IMG/VR virus record: IMGVR_UViG_3300046543_000614
Location: 1-38,738 of that record
From: a virus
DNA length: 38,738 bases
Direction: 5' to 3' (one strand)
Part shown: piece by piece, positions 32,065-33,305 of the stretch
How positions within the stretch are numbered: the first letter of the stretch is position 1
How the letters are laid out: each line of letters starts with the position of its first letter
Notes under the pieces: model-generated
Database searches by the model: none
What the model was told of the DNA's origin: nothing
Seen by the model: the letters and a program-made list of their open reading frames with translations, nothing else
Program-made: the position numbers and the translations under genes

Positions 32065-32282
32065 GCTCATCTCCATAAAAGTGGTGTTGCTGCTGCCAAC
32101 AAAGCAAGGGGCTGGGCGTTACTCCAGCTAGGGCGTTATCCGTGCAACAGCGATATTCGATGCGACTTCATGCACGGGGTATATCGCACCCTCACCAACG
32201 GCCCTACCATTCCATGCGTGTCTACTTTCCACGCCGCCCTTGCTTTGTTGGCTCCGCGCGCACCCGGCGCGGATCGGGGTGG
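32065..32282. other. Non-coding stretch holding an inverted-repeat element
   Basis: A 218-base gap between the lipoprotein and HNH genes without a plausible gene. Most of it is the 158-bp element at 32095-32252 described below. The part nearest the HNH gene is GC-rich (CGCGCGCACCCGGCGCGG, itself partly palindromic). Confidence 0.75.
32095..32252. repeat. 158-bp element bounded by 16-bp perfect inverted repeats
   Basis: GCCAACAAAGCAAGGG at 32095-32110 is the exact reverse complement of 32237-32252. The 126 bases between contain a 7-bp inverted pair GCGATAT / ATATCGC (32150-32156 and 32181-32187), a GTGCA / TGCAC pair around it, and a direct repeat GGGCGTTA (32114-32121 and 32131-32138). The whole could fold as one long structured RNA or be a small inverted-repeat mobile element. 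Confidence 0.7.
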
Positions 32283-32768
32283 TTATAAAACTCTAGAAAA
32301 TTCACCATGTAATTCACGGGACGCTTGGCAATATGCTTTATGCGCATCTTGAGGATCAGAAAACGATCCAAGATATTTTCCTTTCCCGTTAACTTTTATT
32401 TGTGCTCGCCATTTCTTGGTTTGCGTTTGATATGAAACTCCCTTAAGACCTGAAGTATTAGAGAAAGCTACAGACCTATTACATTGATTTTGAAAAGCCG
32501 TAGCTAAACGCAAATTTGCAACGGAGTTATCAGAGGGATTGCCATTAATATGATCCAACGCAGAAGAAGGCATCTCCCCATAAACATAAAGCCATGCAAG
32601 GCGATGGGCACGATAAAATCGGCCTAAATAATGAATTTTTATATAGCCTTGATTAGAGATAGAGCCTGCAATCAATGATGCAGGACGACCTTTTCCGCCT
32701 TTAATCCAAGTAAAAATTCCAGTCATAGGATCATATTTTAGAATCGATTTCAGATCGTCTTGCGTCAT
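32283..32768 (-). CDS. HNH homing endonuclease with AP2 DNA-binding domain
   Basis: A 161-residue protein. I chose ATG 32768, eight bases after AGGAG, over a GTG three codons upstream. The HNH part includes YRAHRLAWLYVYGEMPSSALDHINGNPSDNSVANLRLATAFQNQCN (about 53-100), with the catalytic His in LDHINGN. The C-terminal NTSGLKGVSYQTQTKKWRAQIKVNGKGKYLGSF (about 104-140) is an AP2 DNA-binding domain. Free-standing enzymes like this spread by cutting genomes lacking them. The gene is visibly more AT-rich than its neighbours, a sign of recent arrival. Confidence 0.88.
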   Translation of the reverse strand: MTQDDLKSILKYDPMTGIFTWIKGGKGRPASLIAGSISNQGYIKIHYLGRFYRAHRLAWLYVYGEMPSSALDHINGNPSDNSVANLRLATAFQNQCNRSVAFSNTSGLKGVSYQTQTKKWRAQIKVNGKGKYLGSFSDPQDAHKAYCQASRELHGEFSRVL

Positions 32769-32792
32769 TTCATCCACTCCTAATGAGGCGTT

Positions 32793-33305
32793 TTACTGCG
32801 GGTTGAAAAGCTCGGCGGCCGTGGTCGGCGCCGGCGGCTCGATGGTGATCTCGATGTCCTGCTAGATGCGGTCGCAGAGCAGGCCTATCTGGTCCGAGTC
32901 CGGATGACAGACGATGCGAAAGCCGGTAATCACAGTGCCGCCGTTCTGCGGGTCGAAGACGAACTTGTCGACCTTGCAGTCGTGCAGCACGATGTCGCTT
33001 TCGCCGCCAAGGCCGTAGTCGACGGTGACCTTGTAGCCTGTGCCCTCGAAATCCCATTTGATCGCGCCCATTTTTGGGAAGCGCGGCTGTGTAGCGGCTT
33101 CTGGGTCGGCCTGCTCGGCCAGGTCGGGGTCATCAGGCTTCTTGTAAAGGAAGTCGCCCAGCTCGGAGCTGAATTGCTTCAAGATGGCACCGCTGAGATT
33201 GGCGCGGATGGACAGGTCGACGGCAATGTGGTGCTCGTCGCCATGCAGCTCGGCGCGTGGATTGACGTTCGTCAAGCCGACCTGCGTTTTTGTCAGATCA
33301 AACAT
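32793..33305 (-). CDS. Phage early protein interrupted by an in-frame amber codon
   Basis: ATG 33305 lies behind AAAGGA. The frame runs 147 codons (starts MFDLTKTQVGLTNVNPRAELHGDEHH, a block typical of proteins beside phage exonuclease genes) to TAG at 32864-32862. It then continues open for 22 more codons (QDIEITIEPPAPTTAAELFNPQ) to TAA 32795-32793. The extension keeps the composition and codon use of the gene, so TAG is probably a mutated CAG, a read-through site or a sequence error. Annotate as 32862-33305 if terminating. Function unknown; predicted beta-rich, next to the recombination genes. Confidence 0.72.

Follow-up and report, generated by a model that had tools for sequence, protein, structure and literature searches.

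The window analysed here, the 38,738-nucleotide (nt) IMG/VR virus record IMGVR_UViG_3300046543_000614 taken at its full length, contains a 158-bp element with perfectly inverted ends at positions 32095–32252. Its minus-strand transcript almost certainly folds into a cloverleaf, as covariation among relatives indicates. In this fold, a variable acceptor-like stem leads through a 2-nt linker into a D-like hairpin, which is followed by an insert and by a T-like hairpin that stacks on the acceptor; the arrangement is common to a whole family of phage RNAs (class I). We assign a probability of roughly 0.6 to the reading that the element is a member of a phage-encoded family of tRNA-mimicking scaffold RNAs with an exchangeable insert. 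The family is large, has no entry in Rfam and is apparently undescribed.

Relatives of the window element

An exact search with both arms retrieved no viral contig besides the window record, because the arms vary between phages. With the whole element as query, blastn against phages returned only short matches, and those in Persinger and Orimi01 corresponded to the D-like hairpin; a supposed relative, L112, was discarded as a chance coding match. The relative L083 carries an element whose ends match those of the window (AAAGCAAGGGCGGCGTGGAA... and ...CCAGCCCCTTGCTTTGTTGG). It runs on into a second structured unit with the conserved tail GGTGAATGCGCAGGCTGATGCGC, which is found in at least 120 viral contigs. 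Many of these contigs bear long stems with arms that are unrelated between contigs yet match each other; their mismatches comprised 56 G-T (G.U in RNA) against 16 A-C, both being scored equally. One of the contigs, L236, has the hairpin GGCGTGGAAAGNAGACACGC in common with the window, and the viral contigs that contain this hairpin number at least 119, the GTDB genome contigs 41 (chance expectation in the GTDB genome contig collection, calculated by hand: about 7). Among 157 hairpin matches, 38 had no T motif inside 330 nt; chance or coding matches account for some of these, and others may be divergent members.

A covariance model built from 42 relatives, the window excluded, recognized the window with 78 bits (E=1.2×10−14), L236 with 69 bits and L083 with 34 bits. 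The element that takes the place of the window element in the sister phage L002 received no score with the class I model and is a different long-stem RNA. Rfam 15 matched neither the window nor the element, the latter even at E values up to 10, and for 20 loci, class I or related, the modules had no match either, in agreement with the first-pass annotation of the sequence, which could name no RNA family. No description was found in the open-licence literature searched; large lists of phage RNA candidates could nevertheless include the family. In the bacterial family of one carrier, the module occurred in 1 of 60 further genomes, as expected for a prophage-borne gene.

The class I fold is supported by covariation

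Read along the RNA, a class I module consists of a variable arm, CG, the hairpin GCGUG-GAAAGNAGA-CACGC, a variable insert whose last base is A, a T-like hairpin (in most cases GCCGG-AGUAGCGC-CCGGC) and, without a gap, the complement of the arm. The D-loop GAAAGNAGA is near-invariant across more than 100 phages. Circularity was avoided by searching first for the T-like hairpin through its own motif; the fixed junction then gave the position of the acceptor. Of 118 loci, 112 had an acceptor of at least 6 bp precisely at this D/T junction, its length ranging from 6 to 25 bp. The mode was 7–9 bp with a sharp lower edge at 7, whereas arms shuffled among loci mostly gave 1–5 bp; a 7–9-bp acceptor brings T stem plus acceptor to about 12–14 bp, which is tRNA-like.

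In an alignment of 68 distinct sequences, 96.9% of the cells were paired, compared with 75.9% after shuffling and at most 55% when partners were slid; the covariation score was 0.534 (0.116 shuffled, at most 0.10 slid). Compensatory changes, altering both sides of a pair, were found at all nine scored acceptor pairs, at three T-stem pairs and at one D-loop/T-loop pair. The first seven acceptor pairs contained 23 G.U and one A.C. Tolerance of G.U and not of A.C favours an RNA made from the minus strand over a DNA element.

Within the class I loops, a variable D-loop base pairs with a T-loop base beside an invariant G-C pair. As a predictive test, T-hairpins whose pairing position holds A were sought in viral contigs, with the D-hairpin left out of account. 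All nine T-loop-A modules, some of which may be mutually related, had U in the D-loop, as against a base rate of 6/112 earlier. The D stems of this set were compensated as well (GCGCU/AGCGC, AUGUG/CACAU and GUGCU/AGCAC), and the acceptors measured 6–11 bp. The corresponding search for T-loop C yielded one module, previously known, with the matching G in the D-loop. The window carries the minority type, U32224–A32119. In its pattern of change this covariation looks like that of the elbow pair of tRNA. A structured RNA made from the leftward transcript had been one of several suggestions in the first-pass annotation; the junction test, the covariation, the model match and the elbow prediction support it strongly.

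Structure of the window element

The two arms are complementary at 16 of 16 positions and enclose 126 nt. They form the sole perfect inverted repeat of at least 16 bp (spacing up to 300 nt) in the 38.7-kb window, none of 40 simulated windows contained one of this size, and the record holds a single copy of the element. For either strand, the folding energy of the element lies far below that of shuffled sequences (z about −4.9). The features of the fold and of its flanks are listed in Table 1.

Table 1. Positions of the structural parts of the element and of adjoining features in the window
Feature	Position	Strand	Remarks
Additional hairpin TCCGCGC-CGGGTGC-GCGCGGA	32253–32273	−	Immediately upstream of acceptor 5′ strand; retained in sister L002
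Acceptor-like stem, 5′ strand GCCAACAAAGCAAGGG	32237–32252	−	16/16 pairs; covaries position-for-position in relatives
Linker CG, 2 nt	32235–32236	−	Conserved in family
D-like hairpin GCGUG-GAAAGUAGA-CACGC	32216–32234	−	Hairpin in at least 119 viral contigs; loop pair covaries
D-loop pairs with T-like loop	G32225, U32224 with C32118, A32119	−	Covariation in relatives
Variable insert, 87 nt	32129–32215	−	Not conserved in family
Candidate pseudoknot helix 1, 5′ strand GCGATAT	32181–32187	−	Partner ATATCGC, 32150–32156
Candidate pseudoknot helix 2, 5′ strand CCGTGCA	32171–32177	−	Partner TGCACGG, 32140–32146
T-like hairpin GCUGG-AGUAACGC-CCAGC	32111–32128	−	No gap to acceptor 3′ strand; motif located independently of acceptor
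Acceptor-like stem, 3′ strand CCCTTGCTTTGTTGGC (starts CCCUUGC)	32095–32110	−	Complementarity and junction in relatives
Covariance model R1 match	32102–32245	−	Model built without the window; 78 bits, E=1.2×10−14
HNH + AP2 gene	32283–32777	−	PF13392, PF00847; ends 30 nt upstream of element
Lipoprotein-like gene, 126 aa	31684–32064	−	PF25682; starts 30 nt downstream of element

The inverted ends, the inner arms GCGATAT/ATATCGC and GTGCA/TGCAC and a direct repeat had all been described from the sequence beforehand, and each was recovered. The direct repeat, GGGCGTTA, occurs twice on the plus strand, once within the T-like hairpin and once immediately beside it. The arms GTGCA/TGCAC extend to CCGTGCA/TGCACGG. 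What had gone unremarked is that the two inner arm pairs interleave (7+7 bp; an equivalent arose in 4 of 3000 shuffles) and therefore make a candidate H-type pseudoknot rather than nested hairpins. This pseudoknot is not conserved in the family.

Probable tRNA mimicry and a possible function

Class I shares with tRNA (RF00005) an acceptor stem, a 2-nt linker, a D-like arm and a 5-bp T-like arm stacked on the acceptor, together with a D-loop/T-loop G-C pair and its covarying neighbour. A fixed-size anticodon arm is lacking, and the module has instead an unconserved insert of 44–198 nt across the family (87 nt in the window). The T-arm consensus of tRNA was found in 7 of 118 inserts, compared with 0.025 expected, and in L333 Rfam detects a tRNA body (model positions 5–66, no acceptor stem) nested in the class I module.

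We tentatively propose, from these sequence comparisons, that the RNA may function as a tRNA-mimicking scaffold that is processed by host factors and carries an effector insert. The module would be co-transcribed with its operon and fold into a tRNA-like shape, which would be offered to factors of the host that handle tRNA, with RNase P and the enzymes that process tRNA 3′ ends as the most likely candidates. These would read the elbow and the stack of T stem and acceptor, and the module would thereby be excised as an end-protected, stable small RNA. The effector part would be the exchangeable insert, serving as an RNA decoy, an antisense RNA or another payload; in this role a few phages would have a tRNA body. 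RNase P recognizes the elbow, and its recruitment through tRNA mimicry is established (PMC4810234). The module is common to very many unrelated phages. A more speculative extension is that of a natural tRNA-scaffold cassette, in which the conserved elbow RNA might display swappable payloads in the course of an arms race against competing phages or the defences of the host; in such a system, related phages would keep the slot and exchange the RNA.

Several observations weigh against a payload-bearing tRNA mimic. The 16-bp acceptor of the window (21 bp including the T stem) far exceeds the tRNA-like mode, class I acceptors reaching up to 25 bp. Class I modules have no conserved 3′ CCA, their T-loop AGUAGCGC does not follow the tRNA consensus UUCRANY (nor does 32111–32128 in the window contain GGTTCRANYCC), and the Rfam models of tRNA and transfer-messenger RNA (tmRNA) give the class I module no score. 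The folding excess of the inserts is weak (mean z −0.7), no antisense match of the window insert within the window involved a word beyond chance, and the putative payload role is deduced from the exchangeability of the insert.

Two other functions were considered and rejected: antisense action on the phage itself, as no word was longer than chance, and a general role as RNase III processing stems, against which the short 7–9-bp acceptors of most members argue.

Prophages and well over a hundred phage contigs share this sharply conserved fold, for which Rfam has no entry. As a putative tRNA-mimicking RNA family in DNA phages, it has a covarying elbow whose existence and importance can be tested by point changes. 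Should host tRNA enzymes process the RNA, this would show a phage route to stable small RNAs and could reveal new defence or counter-defence RNAs.

Genomic context and the possibility of a cis-acting leader

The gaps that contain class I modules are long, their median of about 700 nt comparing with 66 nt for all gaps. Orientation was taken from a codon-usage gene call, a rough measure by which 17 of 87 modules were themselves called coding: the module stood between genes on the RNA's own strand at 41 loci and between genes on the opposite strand at 10, and the downstream gene was co-directional at 50 of 69 loci. In annotated isolates, the module occupies unannotated gaps of about 400–590 nt at the start of an operon, often between the repressor and the early operon, and in PotUPM1, D14H and Orimi01 it is beside the repressor gene. 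It is unannotated in the isolates examined, except for hypothetical open reading frames placed over it in four Pseudomonas phages. Class I carriers include the Pseudomonas phages Persinger, D14H and PotUPM1 and the Ochrobactrum phage POI1126. The flanking proteins of class I loci belong to no common family, which argues for action in trans.

This placement would also suit a cis-acting leader, an explanation that we judge unlikely but by no means negligible. As part of the nascent early transcript, the cloverleaf would then bind RNA polymerase or a Nus-type factor and, in the manner of HK022 putRNA, suppress downstream termination or pausing. The long operon-start gaps, the position beside the repressor in three isolates and the co-directional downstream genes are as such a leader would have them, and a related RNA, class II (below), stands behind cI both in mEp460 and in prophages of E. 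coli. The window element, however, lies between two genes inside an operon, the Persinger module comes after the integrase gene and is itself followed by genes of the opposite strand, and the wide variation in insert size is left unexplained by a leader. Like class I, putRNA is a structured non-coding RNA in phage early transcripts, but its architecture is different: it lies downstream of PL/PR, consists of two stem-loops in about 70 nt, targets RNA polymerase in cis (PMC9378689) and has neither cloverleaf nor elbow pair.

Class II RNAs and the possibility of an immunity switch

The GAATGCGC unit that adjoins the L083 element defines a second tRNA-like class (class II). It has a D-like hairpin, GCGC-AGGCUGAU-GCGC, and a T-like hairpin, GCCGG-AGAUCAGCA-CCGGC, the loops of which, GCUGAU (D) and AUCAGC (T), are fully complementary; an acceptor of at least 6 bp was present in 60 of 65 cases. 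Of 5426 complete E. coli genomes, 843 contain a class II RNA without annotation. In mEp460-like lambdoid prophages, class II lies downstream of cI (e.g. L121 5066–5205). The yfdO–yfdP gap of K-12 MG1655 contains no class II RNA. The presence of class II in E. coli genomes puts experiments with laboratory phages within reach.

Regulation by P4 CI and P1 c4 is the model for another explanation, an RNA immunity or attenuation switch. Mutually complementary acceptor strands of neighbouring units would pair to the left or to the right, and the variable strands would define immunity groups. At 14 of 58 class II loci (0.8 expected), an upstream segment of at least 9 nt in the array offers a second partner to the acceptor 5′ strand, the class I and class II units of L083 have one strand in common, and strands that vary yet covary would suit immunity specificity. 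A third strand of at least 9 nt was seen in only 5 and 6 of 102 class I loci, though; the window has no such strand longer than 6 nt, and a protein repressor is present in many of these phages. We therefore consider a switch of this kind quite improbable for the window element; it suits class II better than class I. The P4 CI/P1 C4 antisense RNA (RF01695) is likewise a phage operon-leader RNA with strands complementary to neighbours, a likeness confined to class II arrays; Rfam gives no C4 match, and most class I loci have no third complementary strand.

Decayed tRNAs, tmRNAs and other phage RNAs

The cloverleaf geometry might also be that of a decayed tRNA or tmRNA, or of a pseudo-tRNA surviving from an array of phage tRNAs, and some related arrays do hold tRNAs and permuted tmRNAs, while a few inserts nest tRNA bodies. 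We regard this origin as very improbable. Decay would not have kept compensatory pairs and the near-invariant D-loop over more than 100 phages; tRNAs are rare near class I and class II (10 of 116 class II loci), and a tmRNA-like tag frame ending in AA-stop was found in 2 class I inserts against 2.9 expected (112 loci). Permuted tmRNA (RF04321) resembles class I in joining a tRNA-like domain to a large insert and shares some of the phage RNA arrays, but class I has no tag frame, has other D and T loops and receives no Rfam score.

An ordinary tRNA gene lies on the same strand a few hundred bases from some class I modules (L302 330–437 and 586–658; L294 1919–1963 and 1445–1518). Arrays of several long-stem or tRNA-like units were seen at L145 2800–3800 and L114 1950–3100. 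Unannotated permuted-tmRNA-like genes are present at L114 2000–2173 (a P1-like E. coli plasmid), L116 1153–1302 (Klebsiella phage Magnus) and L118 500–741 (Bordetella phage PHB04); RF04321 scored 104.5 bits in PHB04 and weakly in the other two. By eye, the L114 sequence could encode the tag ANDDLMMVAA.

GOLLD and ROOL are phage-borne structured RNAs too, and GOLLD RNAs are also found near tRNAs. Both are much larger and unrelated in sequence, and the element has no Rfam match. The window RNA adjoins an HNH gene as HEARO (HNH endonuclease-associated RNA and ORF) does; again there is no Rfam match, and the class I module is not linked to HNH genes.

Neighbouring genes and sister phages

On the minus strand, the order of genes is a DUF-type gene, the HNH + AP2 gene, the element and the lipoprotein-like gene, preceded by RecT and a YqaJ exonuclease. 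The element was correctly placed just downstream of the HNH gene by the first-pass annotation. Identity of the sister phage L002/L082 to the window is 97% on the side of the HNH gene, that gene included, and 86% across the lipoprotein gene; in the identical slot this phage has an unrelated element, GCCAACATCGAACCG...CGGTTCGATGTTGG, which is likewise long-stemmed. In L083, the element occurs with no HNH gene nearby. By these comparisons, the element is independent of the HNH gene, and its stem is retained while its sequence changes. HNH relatives near class I loci were seen at three loci only, each more than 2 kb away, so that the presence of class I does not follow HNH genes; an HNH-associated RNA was rejected on these grounds, and the suggestion that the element might move with the HNH gene found no support.

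The perfect terminal inverted repeat and the precise swap of elements at one slot between sister phages could suggest a DNA element, be it a miniature inverted-repeat transposable element, an attC-like recombination site or a scar of HNH homing, but the single copy in the record, arms that differ among phages, the tolerance of G.U and not A.C, two fixed-sequence local hairpins with a loop-loop pair (features of RNA) and the absence of HNH linkage make this hardly credible and speak against the miniature element and the recognition or repair scar of the first-pass annotation.

Other observations

The lipoprotein-like gene matches phrog_478, labelled 'recombination directionality factor'; its sequence reads as a small lipoprotein (MKKSIVTFAVAMSLLSAC...), and the label seems doubtful. 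The DUF-type gene of the window (32785–33305, minus strand) and its counterpart in L002 (2812–3325) each contain one in-frame TAG, at different positions. Each TAG faces CAG in the sister phage (window TAG 32862–32864; L002 TAG after ...EAAT). None of the 27 main window open reading frames stops with TAG (15 TAA, 12 TGA). Amber read-through or recoding of TAG is possible.

A further T-like loop variant, GCGAGTA, noted in L162, L157, L118 and L002, stands ahead of long stems and inside the L002 replacement element; it may be the mark of a third class. Finally, a Burkholderiales-2 RNA (RF02917) is present at L117 161–234 in Bordetella phage IFTN2.
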